From contig NZ_VDGG01000004.1 of the NCBI RefSeq assembly GCF_006861775.1, positions 62,001 to 126,000 on the forward strand: a stretch of 64,000 nucleotides of DNA, in the 5' to 3' direction. Each line of letters starts with the position of its first letter. Within the stretch, counting starts at the first letter, position 1. The notes beneath the pieces were generated by a model, which searched no databases, was not told where the DNA came from, and was given only the letters and a program-made list of their open reading frames with translations. This stretch comes from Psychrobacillus soli. GTDB taxonomy: Bacteria > Bacillota > Bacilli > Bacillales_A > Planococcaceae. A program made the translations under genes and the position numbers. Shown piece after piece: positions 1,111 through 52,464 of the stretch.

Positions 1111-1276
1111 TTTAGGAAATATTTGTAGTTAATGCGTCACAGTCATAGGCGTCTCACTTCAAGTAAACTTGCTATTTTAAGAATTGATTGCTTTCATCGG
1201 CAAATTGGTTGCTCTCAGTACTGGTTTGGTTGCTTTCGGAATAGAATTGATTGCTTTCCATGACCGATTGGTTGCC
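1111..1276. repeat. Direct repeat copy 1 (about 165 bp) carrying 21-bp-period array A1
   Basis: This stretch is repeated nearly exactly at 1474-1640. It contains units TTGATTGCT/TTGGTTGCT at 1184, 1205, 1226, 1247 and 1268, with a final TGGTTTCC unit at about 1289; each is exactly 21 bp after the previous one. The bases between cores differ from unit to unit. No coding capacity with a plausible ribosome binding site was seen. Confidence 0.9.
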
Positions 1277-1297
1277 CTAATCCATTTACTGGTTTCC

Positions 1298-1473
1298 GTG
1301 CGGCGGTGAAGGCTCATCGCTCACCCCACGGAAAGCGTCCGCCCTGCAGCGGAAATCCCAGCGGATACTTCATTTAGCTCATTAAGGTGCAGTATCTCTA
1401 TTATGTTCGACATTCCATTCATCGTTTCCGCTTGCCATATAGGTTAGAGACAGTCGCTTGCGCTTTTTTTGCG
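1298..1473. other. GC-richer spacer between the two direct repeats
   Basis: Contains a GC-rich patch (about 1298-1360) with CGGAAAGCGTCCGCC and CAGCGGAAATCC. From memory this resembles a dispersed intergenic sequence found in many Bacillaceae and Planococcaceae. No gene was seen. The family assignment is uncertain. Confidence 0.4.
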
Positions 1474-1660
1474 TTTAAGGAAATATTTGGAGTTAATGCG
1501 TCACAGTCATAGGCGTCTCACTTCAAGTAAACTTGCTATTTTAAGAATTGATTGCTTTCATCGGCAAATTGGTTGCTCTCAGTACTGGTTTGGTTGCTTT
1601 CGGAATAGAATTGATTGCTTTCCATGACCGATTGGTTGCTCTTAGCCATATTCTGGATTA
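1474..1660. repeat. Direct repeat copy 2 with 21-bp-period array A2
   Basis: Second copy of the 1111-1276 segment, offset by about 364 bp. Array units TTGATTGCT/TTGGTTGCT start at 1548 and recur every 21 bp up to 1632. After the last unit the flank reads CTTAGCCATATTCTGGATTA, very similar to the flank of the arrays near 41.2 and 41.46 kb. The rest of the gap up to 1880 holds no gene that I can support. Confidence 0.9.
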
Positions 1661-3490: not shown

Positions 3491-4204
<714 letters not shown>

Positions 4205-11952: not shown

Positions 11953-11988
11953 AAAGCACTGTACATGTATTCGTGTATAGTGCTTTTT
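11953..11988 (+). terminator. Intrinsic terminator of murAA
   Basis: AAAGCACTGTACA pairs with TGTATAGTGCTTT (small mismatches), followed by T5. The 21-bp-period array begins immediately after it. Confidence 0.85.
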
Positions 11989-11992
11989 GTGT

Positions 11993-12950
11993 TTGGTTGC
12001 TCTTGTTGGTGAACTGGTTGCTTAGCGAGGGAGATTGGTTGCTTATGACCACGAACTAGTTGCTTTCACAGTGGGATTGGTTTCCCTTTGCCACTTTTTA
12101 GTAGGCGAGAGCTCCCATTTCGGAGACGTAGCGGAATTGCAGTCGCCATTTGTAGTTGGTTGCTCTCGCCAGGGAACTGGTTGCTTAGCGAGAGGGATTG
12201 GTTGCTTACGACTGCGAATTAGTTGCTTTCACAGTGGGATTGGTTTCCCTTTGCCACTTTTTAGTAGGCGAGAGCCCCCAATTCGGAGGCGTAGCTGAAT
12301 TGCAGTCATTATTTGTAGTTGGTTGCTCTCGTCAGGGAACTGGTTGCTTAGCGAGAGGGATTGGTTGCTTATGACCACGAACTAGTTGCTTCCAAAGTCA
12401 TTTTAGTTGCGCATTGCCAATTACTAGTAGTCGAGAGCTCCCATTTAGGAGGCGTAGCAGAATTGCAGTCGTCATTTGTAGTTGGTTGCTCTCGCCAGGG
12501 AACTGGTTGCTTAGCGCGGGAAATTGGTTGCTTTCACCTGCGAATTAGTTGCTTCCACAGTGAGATTGGTTTCCCTTTGCCACTTTTTAGTAGGCGAGAG
12601 CTCCCAATTAGGAGGAGTAGCTGAAATTGCAGTCATTATTTGTAGTTGGTTGCTCTCGCCAGGGAACTGGTTGCTTAGCGAGAGGGATTGGTTGCTTACG
12701 ACTGCGAATTAGTTGCTTTCACGGTGGGATTGGTTTCCCTTTTCCACTTTTTAGTAGGCGAGAGCCCCCCATTCGGAGGCGTAGCTGAATTGCATTCGTC
12801 ATTTGTAGTTGGTTGCTCTCACCAGGGAACTGGTTGCTTAGAGAAGGAGATTGGTTGCTTTCGACCGCGAATTGGTTGCTTCTATAGTCGATTTAGTGTC
12901 CCTTTGCCAATTACTAGTAGGCGAGAGTCCCCATTTCGGAGGCAAAGCTA
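11993..12950. repeat. Array B: six 163/164-bp tandem super-units made of 21-bp units
   Basis: The landmark GTAGGCGAGA (or GTAGTCGAGA) recurs at 12101, 12264, 12427, 12590, 12754 and 12918: spacings of 163, 163, 163, 164 and 164. Each super-unit holds about five 21-bp units with core TTGGTTGCT (on the minus strand AGCAACCAA), the last being TTGGTTTCCCT, plus about 58 bases of linker. Because 163 is not a multiple of three, the open frames inside it shift from unit to unit, which argues against coding. The array ends about 20 bases from the stop of the adjacent NERD gene. Confidence 0.95.
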
Positions 12951-12971: not shown

Positions 12972-13919
12972 TTATTTATCAAATTTCATACTATATTTTC
13001 TGCTTCGGGATTGTCCAGTTTTGATTAGCATAGGATTGTTTAATATTTTTGTTGCTTCATACTTATTGTTTAGCTGTAAAAATTGTTGACATTCTTGGTT
13101 AGATATTGTGCTTTTATAGACGAGAAAGTAATCTCTTAGTGCGGCTTCATGTGCGTGGCGATGAGAGGATCTGCATCTTGGGCAATACCAATTTCGAATC
13201 ACTTTTTTCATTCCAATTAATCCGCAGTGCACACATTCGACACCTTTTCGAAGTGAGTTGGGATCAATACCAAAATGATTGGTCAATGGAAATGGCTGAA
13301 AATCGATACTTTCTTTTAGAAGAAAATATTTTAAGCTTTCTAACTGTGCATCTGTTAGAATACAAGCGTTAGCTGGGATATTTCGTATATAAGGTTTGAT
13401 TCCTCTTCGGAATACTATAGTTTTATTTTTTGGGGGGTCTTTAATAATGCTTGAAGAAAAGGCGAAAGCGACGGCACTAAAGATAGGCAATGAAATATGA
13501 TTTGCTTGAAATAATCGTTTCAATTGGGATTGGTAGTCTTCTGATTGAAGGAATGGATTGTCAAATGCATGTGTTTCGTTTGTTGCCAACGTTCTAATCA
13601 TTTGCTGGTCTGTAAATGTAATTTCGCCTTTAATATTTTTCACTTCTAAAATTAACGCATAGTACTGAGTAATGATTAGTATATCCATTTGAAAAAGAGT
13701 TTCGGAATACAATAAAATATTATGAAAAGCGTAAAATTTATAAGGCAAATCCAATTGCTCAATTACTTTCATCACGGCTTCTTCTCCGATATTACCAGCC
13801 ACTTTTTGATAGTATTCTTCTTGTATTTTAGAAAATTTCAAATCATTTTTAGGCATTCTTTTATATAGAGCATGCAAAGCTTCTACATATAGGGAAGCCG
13901 AATATTTTTTGATTATCAT
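12972..13919 (-). CDS. NERD-domain protein with C-terminal zinc ribbon (NERD-1)
   Basis: A 315-residue protein of unknown function. The N-terminal part matches the nuclease-related NERD domain: GEE at 45-47, Asp79 in QMDILI, and Glu92-Val-Lys94 in LEVKN form the D...ExK pattern of PD-(D/E)xK nucleases. A zinc ribbon follows (Cys229-x2-Cys232 and Cys246-x2-Cys249), then a C-terminal helical segment that could be a helix-turn-helix. No membrane helix or signal peptide. The start is the second of two adjacent ATGs after GAGGTG; an in-frame upstream ATG at 13946 precedes that ribosome binding site. The gene is bracketed by 21-bp arrays B (3' side) and C (5' side). A homologue lies at 46112-47080. 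Nuclease activity and DNA binding are inferences. Confidence 0.85.
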   Translation of the reverse strand: MIIKKYSASLYVEALHALYKRMPKNDLKFSKIQEEYYQKVAGNIGEEAVMKVIEQLDLPYKFYAFHNILLYSETLFQMDILIITQYYALILEVKNIKGEITFTDQQMIRTLATNETHAFDNPFLQSEDYQSQLKRLFQANHISLPIFSAVAFAFSSSIIKDPPKNKTIVFRRGIKPYIRNIPANACILTDAQLESLKYFLLKESIDFQPFPLTNHFGIDPNSLRKGVECVHCGLIGMKKVIRNWYCPRCRSSHRHAHEAALRDYFLVYKSTISNQECQQFLQLNNKYEATKILNNPMLIKTGQSRSRKYSMKFDK

Positions 13920-14076
13920 CATATCACCTCGCAAGTAGCTTAGCATAATCTACATGAAAACTAGAAATGCCAGAAATAGCGTTTTAGTATTAGTTTTTGC
14001 AAGGAAAGTAAGTGGAAATTGCATTTTGGCTTGAAATAAAGCATCAAAAATCAATTTTGCTATAATTTTTATTAGG

Positions 14077-14163
14077 TTGGTTGCTTTCATACATACGACG
14101 GAACTGGTTGCTTTCGGCTTACAAACAGTTGCTCTCCCGACTCATTTGGTTTCCCTTAGCTAT
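14077..14163. repeat. Array C: short 21-bp-period array upstream of NERD-1
   Basis: Cores TTGGTTGCT at 14077, CTGGTTGCT at 14104, CAGTTGCT near 14126 and a terminal TTGGTTTCCCTTAGC near 14146. Spacing is 27 and then 21 bp. The orientation matches array B on the other side of the NERD gene. The stretch 13947-14076 is AT-rich with no gene. Confidence 0.85.
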
Positions 14164-16253: not shown

Positions 16254-16306
16254 TGTAGATTGGAATGCAAGTTAAGCATTGCCCAAAGATAAAAAGATTT
16301 CGAGAG

Positions 16307-17208
16307 TTGGTTGCTCTCGTAGGCAAACTGGTTGCTTTCCCAAGCGTTTTAGTTGCTATCACTATTCAATTGGTTGCTGTCCCTGCCAATTTGGTTTCCC
16401 TAAGCCAATTATTTCAAATAAATCATCGCTTTTCACTACATAAAGCGATTCTCCTACGGCAACAAGAATTGGTTGCTCTCGCAGACGAACTGGTTGCTTT
16501 CCCATGCATTTTAGTTGCTGTCACAGCCCAACTGGTTGCTCTCCCTGCTAATTTGGTTTCCCTAAGCCATTTATTTCAAATAAATCAATGCATTCCATTA
16601 CATAAAGTGATTCTCCAGCGGCAACAAGAAGCTATCGTTGAATTGGTTGCTCTCGCAGTCGAACTGGTTGCTTTCCCATGCATTTTAGTTGCTGTCACAG
16701 CCCAACTGGTTGCTCACCCCGCCAATTTGGTTTCCCTAAGCCAGTTATTTCAAATAAATCACCTCATTCCACTACATAAAGCGATTCTCCAGCGGCAACA
16801 AGAAGCTTGCATTGAACTGGTTGCTCTCGCAGACGAACAGGTTGCTATCCCATGCGTTTTAGTTGCTGTCGCAGCTCAATTGGTTGCTCACCCCGCCAAT
16901 TTGGTTTCCCTAAGCCAGTTATTTCAAATAAATCACCGCATCCCACTGCTTAAAGTGATTTTCCTGCTGCAACAAGAACTGGTTGCTCTCGCAGTCGAAC
17001 TAGTTGCTCTCCCAGACATTTTAGTTGCTGTCACTGCCCAACTGGTTGCTCAACCCTCCAATTTGGTTTCCCTAAGCCAATTATTTCAAATAAATCACCA
17101 TATTCCACTACATAAAGCGATTCTCCAGCGGCAATAAGAAGCTTGCATTAAACTAGTCGCTCCCGCAGACGAACTAGTCGCTTTCCCAAGCAATTCAGTT
17201 CCCCCCCA
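16307..17208. repeat. Array D: 162/174-bp super-units of 21-bp repeats between spoIIID and mbl
   Basis: The landmark GGTTGCTCTC recurs at 16309, 16471, 16645, 16819 and 16981, with a degenerate copy at 17155: spacings of 162, 174, 174, 162 and 174. Each super-unit has four TTGGTTGCT-like units 21 bp apart and a terminal TTGGTTTCCCTAAGCCA, then a linker with TTATTTCAAATAAATCA and CAGCGGCAACAAGAA. Both lengths are multiples of three, so one frame stays open for 290 codons (16265-17137), reading LVAxxxx heptads. That frame has no ribosome binding site, and I treat it as non-coding. Confidence 0.93.
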
Positions 17209-34014: not shown

Positions 34015-34039
34015 ATTTTTTTTTTTGAAAAATATAGCT

Positions 34040-34100
34040 GAACGAGACAAAGCACGCCGTGAATGCGACAAACCAATCCGCGAACGCGACAAAACCCATC
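34040..34100. repeat. Three-unit 21-bp array with GCGACAAA core
   Basis: Units start at 34040, 34061 and 34082, exactly 21 bp apart, with GA(A/G)(C/T)G(A/C)GACAAA followed by variable bases. It lies between two REP-like hairpins. A single related unit (AACGCGACAAACCC) is found near 41671. Confidence 0.8.
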
Positions 34101-41054: not shown

Positions 41055-41102
41055 CAAGCAACAAATTGAATTAAAGCGCTCAGCGAACCGCTATTCATAC
41101 CA

Positions 41103-41180: not shown

Positions 41181-41360
41181 TGCTAATATGAAGTAATTTC
41201 CCAATAAAATAATCCAGAAAATGGCTAAGCGCAACCAACAGACCGCTAAAAGCAACTAAACCTATCCCGAGAGCAACCAAATTACTCCTCTAAGCAACCA
41301 TCCAATAGCCGAAAGCAACCATTTCCCAAAGTAAAGAGTTTACTTAATATGAGATAGAGC
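41181..41360. repeat. Direct repeat copy 1 with 21-bp array E1
   Basis: Array units read AGCAACCAA-like on this strand (41221-41334), with five cores 21 bp apart and the flank ATGGCTAAG on the left. The same 180-bp block is repeated 240 bp downstream. No gene in the gap 41136-41768 apart from these repeats. Confidence 0.9.
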
Positions 41361-41420
41361 AGATTTACTAACAATCCCAAGCAAAACGATCGACAAGCCT
41401 AATGTTGCCCCTCGTCAGAT

Positions 41421-41601
41421 CCTAATATTAAGTGATTTCCCAATAAAATAATCCTAAAAAATGGCTAAGGGCAACCAACTGACCGCTGAAAGCAACTAAA
41501 CCTCCCCCGAGAGCAACCAAATTACTCCCCTAAGCAACCATCCAATAGCCGAAAGCAACCATTTTCCCAAAGTAAAGAGTTCACTTAATATGAGATAGGG
41601 C
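41421..41601. repeat. Direct repeat copy 2 with 21-bp array E2
   Basis: Array at 41461-41574, exactly 240 bp after E1, differing at scattered positions. The left flank ATCCTAAAAAATGGCTAAGG matches E1 and, inverted, the A2 array flank near 1640-1660. Confidence 0.9.
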
Positions 41602-41768
41602 CGACTTCCTAAGCACTCCCCATAACACCGAAACGATCATGCATATAAATTGCTAAAATAATCCCCATTCAACGCGACAAACCCGCAAAAACAAGCATTA
41701 CATTCACTCATAAATATGGTACACTTTAGAAAAAATGACCAACTATTACCTATAAAAGGAGCGCTCAC

Positions 41769-45032: not shown

Positions 45033-45761
45033 ATGATCTCAATCAAAAATGTCAATAAAAGCTTCGGTGCCCACCACGTCCTAACCGACGTTTCGCTCGA
45101 AGTACCCAAATCGAATGTAGTCGCACTAATCGGACCTAGTGGAGCGGGGAAATCAACCCTCATCCGAACAATCAATGCACTTGAGCCAATAAACAACGGA
45201 GAAATCATCGTTGACGGAATATCCATCCACGACAAGAAAACGGACATCAACAAAGCCCGACTAAATATCGGCTTCGTATTCCAAAGTTTCAACCTATTTC
45301 CGTTTTTAACGGCACTAGAAAACGTAACAATCTCACCGATGAAAGTAAAAGGACTTTCCAAAGAAGAGGCAGAAAAAAGAGGGAAAGAACTACTAATCTC
45401 ACTCGGGTTGGGAGACAAATTCGACTCGTATCCAAGCAGACTCTCAGGTGGTCAACAACAACGTGTAGCCATCGCACGAGCACTTGCAATGGACCCACAA
45501 GTCATGCTATTTGATGAACCAACATCCGCACTCGACCCAGAAATGGTAACCGAAGTACTAGATGCCATCCGCAAACTAGCAAAAGAAGGCATGACCATGG
45601 TCGTCGTAACACACGAAATGGGCTTCGCCAAAGAAATCTGCGACGAAATCGTCTTCATGGCAGACGGCAAAATCGTCGAACGCGCAGCACCAGAAAAATT
45701 CTTCACCAACCCAGACACACAACGCGCCCAAGACTTCTTATCCAAAGTACTAAACCACTAG
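45033..45761 (+). CDS. Amino-acid ABC transporter ATP-binding protein
   Basis: 242 residues, GlnQ/HisP type. Walker [10 protein letters not shown], signature LSGGQQQR, Walker [13 protein letters not shown] and switch His in VTHEMGFA are all present. AAGGAGGGTG precedes the ATG. Last gene of the operon. Confidence 0.95.
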
Positions 45762-45783
45762 ACATTTCTCTAGTGGTTTTTCT
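45753..45783 (+). terminator. Intrinsic terminator of the ABC operon
   Basis: AACCACTAGA pairs with TCTAGTGGTT, followed by T4. The left arm includes the stop codon. Confidence 0.88.
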
Positions 45784-45795
45784 TATGTTACAAAA

Positions 45796-45824
45796 GTGTT
45801 ACTGGTGCCAGGCACCAGTAACAC
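45796..45824. repeat. REP-like hairpin, copy 6
   Basis: Perfect palindrome GTGTTACTGGTGCC / GGCACCAGTAACAC. A 21-bp array starts five bases later. Confidence 0.9.
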
Positions 45825-45828
45825 TACT

Positions 45829-46034
45829 CAAGCTCGAGTACCAAATGTCTAAGTCGCACCACATAACCTGGCTCGAGTACCACATACCCAAGCTGAACAC
45901 CACATACCCAAGCTCGAGTACCACATATCTCAACCAGAGCACCACATAACCTAGCTCGAGTACCACATACCCAAGTCGACCACCACATACCCAAGCTTGA
46001 GCACCACATATCCAAGCCCAAACACCACATACCC
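45829..46034. repeat. Array F: ten units with core ACCACATA, upstream of NERD-2
   Basis: ACCA(A/C)AT cores start at 45840, 45858, 45879, 45899, 45920, 45941, 45962, 45982, 46003 and 46024: mostly 21 bp apart, some 20, the first 18. Many units are preceded by CTCGAGT. The sequence differs from the GCAACCAA arrays but the architecture is the same. Confidence 0.92.
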
Positions 46035-46111
46035 CAACCAAAAACAAACAATTGCCTTCCACCCAACATTCTGCTACTCTATACCCAGATCAATAGAAAG
46101 GAGCAATTACA

Positions 46112-47080
46112 ATAGAAATCCTCAGACCACAATCACCCAACCACCAAGCTCTAGCTCGACTAAAAGCCCGCCTGCCAAAACACCACGAAAAATACCCATC
46201 CATCCTAGAAAAACTAGACCAAACAAACGCAGGCTACCATGGAGAACTACGCGTAGACAAATTCATCGAAGAAGTACAATTTCCGCAACAAGTACACATC
46301 ATCCCAGACCTACACATCCGCCTCCACGCCAAAAGATACATCCAGATCGACACCCTAATCCTAACAAAATCCTATATCCTAATAACCGAAGTCAAAAACA
46401 TAACAGGCACCCTTCGATTCAAAGAATACCCAAATAAACTCGTACGCATCGTAGACAACAAAGAAGAAAAACCATTCGATTGTCCCGTCGTCCAACTAGA
46501 AAGAAACAGCGATGGAATCAGCAATATCCTAGCAAAAGTCAATCTAAAACTTCCCATTCACCAAGCGCTCGTCTTCCCATCCCAGAACACAATAATCGAA
46601 AATGCCCCCAAAAACCGCAATATCTTTTTCGTCAAACAATTCCCGTTATTTATCCAAAAACTAAATAAACTACCGCCAATTCTAACTGAAAGCCAACTCA
46701 CCTTTCTCGCAAACGAACTAATAAACATAAATAAAAAATTCCCATCTAAACCACTATGCGAACGATTGAACATAAATCCCGAGCACTTACAGAAAGGAGT
46801 ACTATGCAAACATTGTGACACAGCACTCCTAAGAAAATCCCTTCGCACCTGGATATGCAGCGTATGTAAAACCAAAGACACCAACCCAATCCCAAGGAAC
46901 ATAGAGGATCTATTTATACTAATCAAACCACACATATCCATTCAGGACTGCATGTACTACTTGCAAATAAACTCCAGATACACAATCTATAACAGTCTAC
47001 AAAAAATGCAACTAGAAAAAAGAGGTCACAAAAAATCAACCAAATACACCAAAATAACAAAACCATCCACGCAAAAATAA
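46112..47080 (+). CDS. NERD-domain protein with zinc ribbon (NERD-2), non-canonical ATA start
   Basis: A 322-codon open frame homologous to the NERD gene at 12972-13919. Counting the ATA as residue 1, GE44-45, Asp80 in QIDTLI and Glu93-Val-Lys95 in TEVKN match NERD-1 residues 45-46, 79 and 92-94, and the zinc ribbon (Cys232, 235, 249, 252) has the same spacing. No ATG, GTG or TTG lies in frame between the stop codon at 46094 and codon 219, yet AAAGGAG sits eight bases before ATA 46112. The start is therefore ATA (or ATT at 46106), or an original ATG has mutated. The frame is otherwise intact. It is bracketed by ACCACATA arrays. Function unknown. Confidence 0.75.
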   Translation: MEILRPQSPNHQALARLKARLPKHHEKYPSILEKLDQTNAGYHGELRVDKFIEEVQFPQQVHIIPDLHIRLHAKRYIQIDTLILTKSYILITEVKNITGTLRFKEYPNKLVRIVDNKEEKPFDCPVVQLERNSDGISNILAKVNLKLPIHQALVFPSQNTIIENAPKNRNIFFVKQFPLFIQKLNKLPPILTESQLTFLANELININKKFPSKPLCERLNINPEHLQKGVLCKHCDTALLRKSLRTWICSVCKTKDTNPIPRNIEDLFILIKPHISIQDCMYYLQINSRYTIYNSLQKMQLEKRGHKKSTKYTKITKPSTQK

Positions 47081-47114
47081 AAAGGAAGCCAATTTACAAA
47101 TCGGCTTCCTTTTC
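47081..47114 (+). terminator. Intrinsic terminator of NERD-2
   Basis: AAAGGAAGCC pairs with GGCTTCCTTTT around a 12-base loop. Confidence 0.9.
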
Positions 47115-47129
47115 ACACAAAAAACTTGC

Positions 47130-47166
47130 GAGCACCACATAACTAATTACAAGTACCACATAAACC
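47130..47166. repeat. Array F2: two ACCACATA units downstream of NERD-2
   Basis: CACCACATAA at 47133 and TACCACATAA at 47154, 21 bp apart, in the same orientation as array F. Confidence 0.75.
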
Positions 47167-47221
47167 TACCTAACCATCAGCATACTCAAAATAAAAACAA
47201 GCCACTTCCTTTGAAAAGAGA

Positions 47222-47320
47222 ATGCAGACGTATGAAGCAGTCAATATGCTATATCAGGTCTCTATATTCCTAGCACCAGCAGTTGTTGCCCTGATTGCAC
47301 TATACACTAATATAAAGTAA
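47222..47320 (+). CDS. Putative holin-like type I toxin, 32 residues
   Basis: A 32-residue hydrophobic peptide beginning MQTYEAVNMLYQ, with one membrane helix to the end. The M-x-x-YEA/YES start, hydrophobic body and size fit the putative holin-like toxin family of Firmicutes (relatives BsrG and TxpA), which are silenced by antisense RNA. GAAAAGAG precedes the ATG. A hairpin at 47571-47605 may end the mRNA or an antisense RNA. Function is inferred from likeness only. Confidence 0.55.
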   Translation: MQTYEAVNMLYQVSIFLAPAVVALIALYTNIK

Positions 47321-50874: not shown

Positions 50875-52464
50875 ATGAGTTATACTTTACATAGAAAAGT
50901 ACACATCAAGCGTGATAAAGAAGAAGATCGACGTTCGCAACAACAAGTAGATAAATGGATTTTATATTCGCTACTCGCCGCTATTGTTCTTGTACCGTTA
51001 CTTGTTGGAGGTCATGTTACAAATGTTGTGAGTCCACTAATAGCTGATGCCAGCCAACTTGTATCCGGCGAAAAAATTGACTTTTTTACATTTTATAAAT
51101 TTATTGCTCTTATTATTTTAACTGTAATCGCTACGAGTTTATTTTTGTATAAATTCTTCTTCTTAGATTATCGCTTACCCAAACGCCCTATTTTATGGTT
51201 TTTTGCACTATTTCTACTTGCTATTGTTTTAGCAACTACGTTTTCTCCTAGTAAGACAATAGCCCTGTATGGACAATACAATCGTACAGATGGTGCACTT
51301 TCATACATATGTTATATTTTATTAATGTTTGTTGCTATGCATATTCAATATCCTAAAAAAGTAGTAGAATACGTACTTTATGCATTCTATCCATTAGTTA
51401 TTATAAACTTTGTCGTAACAACGATGAATTTTACTAATCACGATGCATTAATGTATGGTCCATTAAAAACAGCTCTTACACTTTTTGCACCAGAGATAGT
51501 TGTAGGAGAAAATTCACAACTATTAGGAACGCTTAATCACTGGAATTATATGAGTGGAATGTTTGCAATAGTTACGATTATGTATTTATCATGGATAGTT
51601 ATTGATACGAACAAGGTGCGAAGAGTTATTAACTTTGTCTTTGCTATACTAGCTATGACTACAATGTTGATAGCAATGTCAGCAAGTGGTTTTGTAACGT
51701 TTGTATGCATTACACCTTTAATTATCTGGCTTGCTATTAAATCATCAAACAAAAAAATGGCTTTCATTTCACTCGTTATTTTTACTATATTAACGGCAGG
51801 GATACTTCATGTTTTATCTATGAAGGATCCAGAAGCTTGGGATGAATCAATAGGATTCTTTTTACCTGGAAATCCTTACATTGATGAACAATCAGTAGAC
51901 ACATCGCTTAATGATGATACTAGCTGGGCCCCTTCGATTTTACTTGGTGCTAAAGCTTTTGCAGCTGATGAAGTATTTCAATTGCCAGAGTTACCAGAAA
52001 GTGCTTGGGGTCCTGGTACCGGACGTATCTATATTTGGCAGAAAACACTTCATTTATTAAGTGAAAGACCATTGTTCGGTTATGGTTTAGATACACTCAT
52101 GTATAATTTCCCTCACAATGATATAGAAGCACGGTCTAATTTAACAGTGGTGACTATTGTTGATAAACCACATAGTCTTTATGTGGGGGTTGCTTATGGA
52201 ACGGGTATTGTTGGGATAGTGGGCTTTCTAGGTATAATAATTTATACTGTATGTGCGGCAGTAATGAGCATTATTCGTTTTAAGGTATTTTCAGGATTAA
52301 CAGTAATACTTTGCATAGGATGGCTCGCATTTTTAGTACAAGCCTTATTTAATGATTCATTACCCGGTACTACTGCTTCACTTTTTGCTATTGCTGGCAT
52401 CATGATGGCACAGTTGTACAACAAGAAAGAGATAAGCGGATCTATTAATGAAAGAAATATATAA
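50875..52464 (+). CDS. O-antigen ligase / polymerase-family membrane protein
   Basis: 529 residues with about ten to twelve membrane helices and a large outside loop (about residues 310-420). The WaaL/Wzy_C-like motif LHLLSERPLFGYGLDTLMYNFP, followed by VDKPHSLYVGVAYGTG, with a conserved His, lies in and after that loop. In S-layer-glycan loci of Geobacillus a protein of this type transfers the finished glycan to the S-layer protein. Ligase and polymerase cannot be told apart from sequence alone. AGGAGTTATAAGT precedes the ATG. Confidence 0.85.
   Translation: MSYTLHRKVHIKRDKEEDRRSQQQVDKWILYSLLAAIVLVPLLVGGHVTNVVSPLIADASQLVSGEKIDFFTFYKFIALIILTVIATSLFLYKFFFLDYRLPKRPILWFFALFLLAIVLATTFSPSKTIALYGQYNRTDGALSYICYILLMFVAMHIQYPKKVVEYVLYAFYPLVIINFVVTTMNFTNHDALMYGPLKTALTLFAPEIVVGENSQLLGTLNHWNYMSGMFAIVTIMYLSWIVIDTNKVRRVINFVFAILAMTTMLIAMSASGFVTFVCITPLIIWLAIKSSNKKMAFISLVIFTILTAGILHVLSMKDPEAWDESIGFFLPGNPYIDEQSVDTSLNDDTSWAPSILLGAKAFAADEVFQLPELPESAWGPGTGRIYIWQKTLHLLSERPLFGYGLDTLMYNFPHNDIEARSNLTVVTIVDKPHSLYVGVAYGTGIVGIVGFLGIIIYTVCAAVMSIIRFKVFSGLTVILCIGWLAFLVQALFNDSLPGTTASLFAIAGIMMAQLYNKKEISGSINERNI

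Follow-up and report, generated by a model that had tools for sequence, protein, structure and literature searches.

According to passages of PMC2817692, the RAYTs are tyrosine transposases with an HxH motif and a catalytic Tyr, related to the transposases of IS200/IS605, and the repetitive extragenic palindromes (REPs) that go with them are palindromes in inverted order. A gene accompanied by repeats of its own is also found in Psychrobacillus soli, whose genus the NCBI taxonomy places in the Bacillaceae, order Caryophanales. The locus lies in a stretch of 64,000 nucleotides (assembly GCF_006861775.1, contig NZ_VDGG01000004.1, positions 62,001 to 126,000 of the forward strand), called the window below, from whose first letter coordinates are counted. 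Its gene, NERD-2, is predicted to encode a nuclease and is bracketed by tandem arrays of short direct repeats. We put at roughly 0.7 the probability that NERD-2 stands for a family of DNA-binding nucleases with cognate arrays that co-evolve with them and spread.

The original prediction that NERD-2 is flanked by ten units upstream and two downstream, in the orientation of the gene, was confirmed; the units are 20-21 bp apart. The upstream array (45829..46034, + strand) contains nine exact ACCACATA units, starting at 45858, 45879, 45899, 45920, 45941, 45962, 45982, 46003, and 46024, which together with a degenerate first unit (AGTACCAAATG, near 45837) make ten. The eight spacings among the exact units are 21 bp six times and 20 bp twice. 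The downstream array (47134..47162, + strand) consists of two exact units, at 47134 and 47155. The whole window holds 12 copies of ACCACATA, all on the + strand, of which 11 belong to these arrays and the remaining one lies apart from them at 52167; by chance, 100 shuffles gave a mean of 1.56 copies and a maximum of 5. ACCACATA is the constant part of the proposed core, while 'GTACCACA' as a whole does not qualify, as the two preceding bases vary (GT, GC, AC, CC).

The NERD-2 frame spans 327 amino acids from stop to stop (46097..47080, + strand) and has no in-frame ATG, GTG, or TTG before 46766, i.e. for more than 200 codons. Translation likely starts at an ATA at 46112 that follows AAAGGAG and would yield 322 amino acids; this start is kept in both NERD-2 orthologues (L058 and L060). 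By a rough test, several other family members apparently use ATA, ATC, or ATT starts, and the test flagged 43 of 164 genes across the family, though it is not reliable for proteins whose profile match starts late. Genes of this kind may be shortened or overlooked by gene callers. The protein matches Pfam NERD (PF08378) with 47.2 bits against a cut-off of 22.1, over residues 46-161 of the 327-residue frame (46232..46579, + strand), a nuclease domain of the PD-(D/E)XK type. Numbered from 46112, NERD-2 has E45, D80, E93, and K95, which we take to be catalytic; D80 and K95 are invariant and E45 and E93 at least 90% conserved in 65 sequences, so that the conserved D...ExK residues of the domain are in place. 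A zinc ribbon follows (C232-x2-C235 ... C249-x2-C252; 46805..46867, + strand), with all four Cys invariant in the same sequences. In the AlphaFold2 model (mean pLDDT 93.9, pTM 0.87), residues 260-313 (46889..47050, + strand) form a winged helix of helices 260-270, 277-284, and 289-298 and strands 302-304 and 311-313, the wing lying between the strands. Helix 289-298 (46976..47005, + strand) is the recognition helix of this winged helix-turn-helix (wHTH).

The genome of the window encodes five PF08378 proteins, four of which share the zinc ribbon and the C-terminal domain, lie next to 21-bp arrays, and match NERD as their sole Pfam family above the gathering cut-off (47.2, 61.8, 64.4, and 59.7 bits). 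Each of the four has its own core: GCAACCA for NERD-1, ACCACATA for NERD-2, AATCGCAAGATA for the C69 copy, and TTCCAACTAA for the C16 copy; the C69 copy has an array downstream only and the C16 copy on both sides. The fifth protein, which carries an HRDC domain instead of the ribbon and C-terminal domain, has no array beside its gene. Of 261 genomes in the window's family, 245 matched a profile built from the four proteins, and the best 80 of 107 loci were taken from GTDB genomes with species names (Psychrobacillus, Cytobacillus, Fictibacillus, Virgibacillus, and others). The family sample held 180 distinct open reading frames (ORFs) of at least 60 bits, from which 16 (below 280 amino acids or 100 bits) were left out before counting. 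An array was defined as a chain of at least four units at 21±1 bp or multiples thereof, with at most one mismatch in 8 between units, in a flank of about 450 bp before or 540 bp after the gene. Such an array adjoins 152 of the 164 distinct full-length proteins of NERD, zinc ribbon, and wHTH, all from Bacillus-like bacteria. Arrays were found in 188 of 325 flanks, compared with 1 of 325 shuffled flanks and 4 of 257 windows located 1.1-1.6 kb away.

When the 21-bp period was not assumed, 1412 of 2266 adjacent spacings fell at 19-22 bp, 157 at 39-43, and 30 at 60-64, against 18 at 30-32 and 23 at 50-54; helical phase is therefore kept even across missing units. The arrays differ from those of CRISPR in that their spacers also repeat when the arrays are long (e.g. 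L092). In a separate draw of 398 genomes of the phylum, the profile matched in 78, mostly over the NERD part only. Among 29 loci taken from this draw, all five with full-length proteins had arrays (four from other families and one from the window's family; L531 was the weakest), and no array was found beside any of 25 NERD proteins lacking ribbon and wHTH (the other 24 loci and the HRDC protein, L001).

The original prediction also held that protein and repeat co-vary through matched specificities, and the comparison of cores with NERD phylogeny and C-terminal residues over many loci supports it. In 35 of 36 two-sided loci the cores of the two flanks agree, with a similarity exceeding the 99th percentile of 3000 pairs taken between loci; in none of the 36 are they reverse complements. 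Mean core similarity rises from 0.24 at below 30% protein identity to 0.84 above 90% (8 pairs; 152 loci), and in 150 of 157 protein pairs with at least 60% identity the cores are more alike on the same strand than reversed. With overall identity removed, the leading covariation columns in 1077 pairs were 289, 293, 309, 245, 288, 270, 165, and 290. We then used 58 disjoint pairs of related proteins, 56 of them usable (two lacked helix residues), and corrected for identity elsewhere in the protein. Identity in the recognition helix predicted core similarity with a partial rho of 0.52 (p 4.6e-5), compared with 0.39 for the wing, -0.01 for the NERD part, and 0.00 for the zinc ribbon. The ranges of helix and wing were chosen after the column scan; as a check on this choice, a scan of 103 windows ranked those starting at 285, 282, and 288 first to third by covariation. 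Covariation thus peaks in the recognition helix and not in the nuclease domain. In the pair test the signal of specificity is found in the wHTH and not in the zinc ribbon; the ribbon columns 245, 248, and 244 do score in the all-pairs scan. A consensus across cores, G-Y-R-M-C-M-M-A, was not borne out: the mean similarity of 3000 between-locus pairs was 0.25, versus 0.22 for the reverse complement. Within a clade with a helix starting in KDK, CCAAC occurs in the core of all seven proteins with Asn-293 and of one with His-293, and in none of eight with Ser or two with Tyr. The Asn-293 rule is limited to this clade, as ten Asn-293 proteins outside it lack CCAAC.

A natural exchange points in the same direction. 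The syntenic loci of Bacillus sp. RAR_GA_16 (L113) and Pseudalkalibacillus spartinae (L131) share 95% identity along 3.8 kb, as far as locus base 3817, and 90% identity resumes at 4034 and continues through the locus end. Similarity breaks off at codon 289, where the recognition helix starts. The 217-bp block in between, which takes in the final 35 codons and all of the downstream array, is only 51-58% identical and has the core TTTGGCCAATA in L113 and TTCGCGGAA in L131; L115 and L108 retain the second form. In this pair of loci, reader and site have changed together.

Copies of the cores were counted as exact pairs at 21 bp in 19 genomes of the genus, gene-side arrays included. GCAACCA pairs numbered 176 in the window's genome, 253 in G133, 50 in G129, 46 in G137, 18 in G127, 6 in G141, 5 in G132, and 0 in 12 genomes. 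NERD-1 orthologues with this core are present in the window's genome, G137, G133, and G127 (the core being partly alike); apart from more distant NERD genes, G129 has only NERD-1 fragments, whose matches span 49 and 45 residues at 78 and 87% identity. For ACCACATA there were 9 pairs in the window's genome (7 beside NERD-2), 67 in G138, 22 in G136, 5 in G127, and 0 in 15, and the NERD-2 gene is present in the first three. TTCCAACT pairs amounted to 47 in the window's genome, 39 in G129, 10 in G125, 15 in G131, 47 in G140, and 33 in G132, where a NERD gene with the same core exists (some of these genes look broken, and that of G132 is split in two), and elsewhere to 30 in G137, 18 in G142, 10 in G127, 8 in G141, 1 in G133, and 0 in 8. 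TTACAACT, one base off TTCCAACT, gave 78 pairs in G133, 27 in G137, 16 in G129, 5 in G141, 2 in the window's genome, and 0 in 14, and the orthologue of the C16 gene has the TTACAACT core in G133 and G137 only. Across this one-base change, the ratio of TTCCAACT to TTACAACT pairs is 1 to 78 in G133 and 47 to 2 in the window's genome, with the matching NERD in each. The median was 39 pairs in the 15 genome-core combinations with a same-core NERD and 0 in the 61 without, the cells being not independent and split by hand, with some genes having an internal stop (G125, G131, G137) or being split (G132) and the G127 core being only partly the same. Reversed control patterns gave 0, save 2, 3, and 1 in three cells. 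By these counts, dispersed copies occur mainly where the cognate NERD is, and copies without the gene are best read as leftovers after its loss or change.

At least some of the dispersed arrays seem to be copies of a longer element. A lead motif, AAATGG[CT]T[AT]AG, was found in 12 of 34 GCAACCA clusters (fetched loci, with overlapping loci counted more than once). Twelve copies picked by the motif, including one from the block array near mbl, have some sequence in common outside motif and units, for example AATCC before the motif and a tail after the last unit in most of them. In a small sample of 21 GCAACCA clusters, 17 could be scored for gene context: 8 were convergent, 6 had both neighbours on the opposite strand, 3 had both on the same strand, and none was divergent; the remainder lay inside possibly spurious ORFs (3) or at a contig edge (1). 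The strands of GCAACCA arrays in G127 are mixed. The ACCACATA arrays lie within a few hundred kb of NERD-2 in G138 (G138:C1 1.0-1.4 Mb) and G136 (G136:C1 2.9-3.3 Mb), nearly all on the strand of NERD-2.

We propose that the NERD-2 family are sequence-specific DNA-binding nucleases of Bacillus-like bacteria, composed of NERD, zinc ribbon, and C-terminal winged helix. The recognition helix and wing would read the 8-12 bp core of the flanking 20-21 bp arrays, and since the units are two helical turns apart, proteins bound to them would all sit on the same side of the double helix. Protein and array would form a matched pair that changes together, with the gene-side and many of the dispersed arrays carrying the core of the resident protein. 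The nuclease may nick or cut at or near the arrays, and repair or recombination may then homogenize, amplify, and spread them, as proposed for RAYTs and REPs. Of these steps, the matched binding of core and protein is the one in which we have high confidence on the sequence evidence, and for the spreading of arrays being driven by the protein we consider the odds even.

Linkage, phased arrays, matching flank cores, covariation in helix and wing, joint exchange of helix and array, and dispersed copies mostly with the cognate NERD are all seen at the level of sequence; binding is inferred from them, and cleavage and spreading are proposed. Several points weigh against this explanation. Twelve of the 164 full-length genes lack a four-unit array, and control spacings of 17, 27, and 31 bp reached four units in 9, 53, and 79 of the 325 flanks; we attribute the chains at 27 and 31 to multiples of 21 being picked up by the test. 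When all pairs are taken together, protein identity and core similarity have a rank correlation of only 0.24 (reached in 0 of 200 permutations), a low value due to most pairs being distant. Columns outside the wHTH score as well (245, 165), and the rest of the C-terminal domain gave a partial rho of 0.36 in the pair test. Foldseek returned no PDB match at E ≤ 0.001, and the fold was likened to known wHTH structures by re-aligning Foldseek's own list only. Copies (1 to 50 pairs) were present in 12 of the 61 combinations without a same-core NERD. Free cutting would damage genomes with a hundred or more sites, and the nuclease must therefore be restrained, nick, or act otherwise. Finally, NERD-2 looks inherited rather than mobile, since the same ABC transporter genes lie about 2 kb upstream in G136 and G138, and neither a clean empty site nor a target duplication turned up for it. 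The reading of an empty site was abandoned: even G141, G129, and G137 have diverged too far in the intergenic region that follows the ABC transporter gene for insertion ends or a target duplication to be read. G127 retains two ACCACATA copies after the ABC transporter gene (by eye), which suggests that NERD-2 was lost in that line.

Alternatively, the arrays could be operator or decoy sites that check a toxic or defensive nuclease and regulate its gene, so that loss of the cassette would free residual protein, similar to addiction with a DNA antidote. The proximity of the arrays to the gene, often with 4-5 units, and the conserved catalytic-type residues would fit such a role, and the lack of a standard start in NERD-2 and its two orthologues suggests low, controlled expression. 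Matches of the NERD domain to the defence proteins MAD6 and PglW also lean this way, at scores that are weak and far below the NCBIfam cut-offs; with PADLOC, the NERD part of two of the four array-linked proteins weakly matched PglW (E 2.7e-4 and 6.1e-3), a REase_II model was also matched by one of these two (E 0.038), and the other two had no match. However, the roughly 250 array pairs in G133 exceed what decoys need, NERD genes are sometimes broken or missing while the arrays persist, unlike in an addiction module, and there is no defence gene among the ten window neighbours scanned. Nor was a relative of NERD-2 found on plasmids, of NERD-1 in phages, or of the four-protein alignment in viral contigs, and a phage or plasmid origin was rejected on the same grounds. 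Viral contigs contained at least 120 stretches with GCAACCA pairs and at least 120 with TTCCAACT pairs; among the matches listed these were single pairs except for two contigs with two TTCCAACT pairs, which are read as chance. We regard a restrained nuclease of this kind as unlikely.

Still less probable is that the family organizes the chromosome, binding dispersed arrays as a nucleoid or partition-like factor with the nuclease domain being secondary. The dispersed arrays are what this explanation builds on, and it is at odds with core, copy number, and presence differing between close species, with some cores being rare beyond the gene, as for the ACCACATA pairs in the window's genome, and with the conserved catalytic-type residues.

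Control at the RNA level, in which the array would be transcribed and the repeat RNA would control the nuclease as in type III toxin-antitoxin systems, is very improbable. The arrays do lie in gene orientation, and the NERD-2 upstream array folds better than its shuffles (z -4.48). Four of its spacers (45832, 45871, 45912, 45954) contain GCTCGAG, of which CTCGAG is palindromic, and these probably explain the good folding. As a family trait, RNA structure was rejected: over 180 of 188 arrays the fold z averaged -0.34 for the strand of the gene and -0.45 for the opposite one, with no strand-specific fold, and RNA would not need helical phase across missing units. A terminator-like hairpin stands between stop and array in 32 of 68 downstream arrays starting at least 40 nt after the stop, those of L058 and L060 included, compared with 14 of 68 when shuffled. 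This argument is qualified by NERD-2 itself, where the terminator scan scored the hairpin between gene and downstream array (47077..47116, no strand assigned) as terminator-like on the - strand only (3 sites in the region; mean of shuffles 1.4). No Rfam match was found in the window. That ordinary minisatellites happen to lie near NERD genes is next to negligible: tandem repeats with variable spacers do expand and contract easily, and the flank controls, matching flank cores, helix covariation, 0 of 25 in the negative control, and the L113/L131 exchange all speak against it.

NERD-1, the paralogue, lies at 12972..13946 (- strand), with a downstream array in which a 163-bp block of GCAACCA-type units recurs about 5.9 times (11986..12943, - strand) and an upstream array of four partly degenerate units identified by eye (14076..14156, - strand). 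Dispersed GCAACCA arrays are located at 1188..1640 (- strand), at 16303..17200 (- strand; five 174-bp blocks between the M23 peptidase and MreB/Mbl genes), and at 41231..41561 (+ strand; two copies of the element). This last, intergenic site carries GCAACCA arrays in the window's genome, G129, and G137; in G141 and G132 the arrays there are of the GCGACAAA type, and G133 has none. Between window positions 41097 and 42699, several genomes of the genus have different NERD genes with different cores (e.g. L171, L173, L175, L176, L184, L196). An array of the third core, GCGACAAA, which none of the four array-linked NERDs of the genome carries, occurs at 34039..34093 (+ strand), with further units at 41674; NERD genes with a GCGACAAA-type core are present in L085 and L175, and the units in the window look like leftovers of a lost gene. 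A palindrome, GTGTTACTGGTGCCAGGCACCAGTAACAC, lies immediately 5' of the NERD-2 upstream array (45796-45824), and GGTGCCAGGCACC-type palindromes also occur in one intergenic region of G127. A consensus scan of 45700-47250 found no promoter for NERD-2. A scan of ten proteins encoded near the two NERD genes and the array at 41231 identified an EPSP-synthase type (murA-like), SpoIID, M23 peptidase, MreB/Mbl, and HTH-cupin protein, ABC transporter parts, an SbsC-type surface protein, and an aminotransferase; one had no match, and none was a cas gene product.

Open-licence PMC papers were searched for NERD with tandem or direct repeats, winged helix, or zinc ribbon, and for nucleases with cognate tandem repeats, and among the matches listed there was no description of a linkage between NERD and arrays. 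The NERD passages retrieved (a figure legend, a rare defence system, a plasmid gene cluster, a casposon, and an integron cassette) mention no arrays, and one of the proteins, from a Vibrio integron cassette, is described in such a passage as a NERD domain with a C4 zinc finger (PMC3262767). We lean slightly towards a second, independently evolved class of the REP/RAYT kind: nucleases with their own phased arrays and a modular, readable code, in which helix residues 288-293 would read the first part of the core and wing residues 307-310 its end, reader and site being exchanged between loci as one cassette and a new core then replacing the old one genome-wide. If so, a class of unexplained intergenic repeats in Bacillus-like bacteria would gain an owner, and the RAYT logic would have evolved twice with unrelated enzymes. 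The 152 loci offer about 150 natural protein-site pairs of a small winged helix with many 8-12 bp cores, including a near-isogenic swap. The rules of wHTH recognition and the evolution of new DNA specificity would become directly testable, and the function of a poorly studied nuclease family would be opened to simple experiments.

In comparison with known systems, the array-linked NERDs have the nuclease domain and its conserved catalytic-type residues in common with other PF08378 proteins and differ from them in the C-terminal ribbon, the wHTH, and the private arrays. Centromere-binding and regulatory wHTH proteins (AspA; MarR, ArsR, and IclR types) have the same winged-helix fold and read repeated sites by helix and wing; the array-linked NERDs differ in being fused to a nuclease and in having a core that varies by locus. 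Type III toxin-antitoxin systems also place a repeat array beside a nuclease gene, but there the repeats function as RNA and the fold of the toxin is different, whereas the evidence for the NERD arrays points to DNA sites. From the PD-(D/E)XK nucleases Cdn1, Can2, McrC, EndoMS, and PspGI the family differs in its DNA-reading module, and no PDB sequence match over the nuclease domain was found at E up to 1. The nearest system is REP/RAYT. As described in parts of PMC2817692, there too a gene is flanked by its own repeats, gene and repeats form co-evolving cognate pairs at fixed loci, repeat number follows the gene, and in some species the repeats lie close to the gene, a pattern also seen for ACCACATA and NERD-2 in G138 and G136. 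Both co-evolution and repeat number following the gene were found here, over four cores and 19 genomes with the 12 exceptions among 61 combinations. The NERD family has a nuclease, zinc ribbon, and winged helix in place of a tyrosine transposase, and its arrays are non-palindromic direct repeats in 20-21 bp phase, on the same strand at 35 of 36 loci and reverse complements at none. The two systems are closely alike in logic and unrelated in enzyme, repeat type, and recognition domain.
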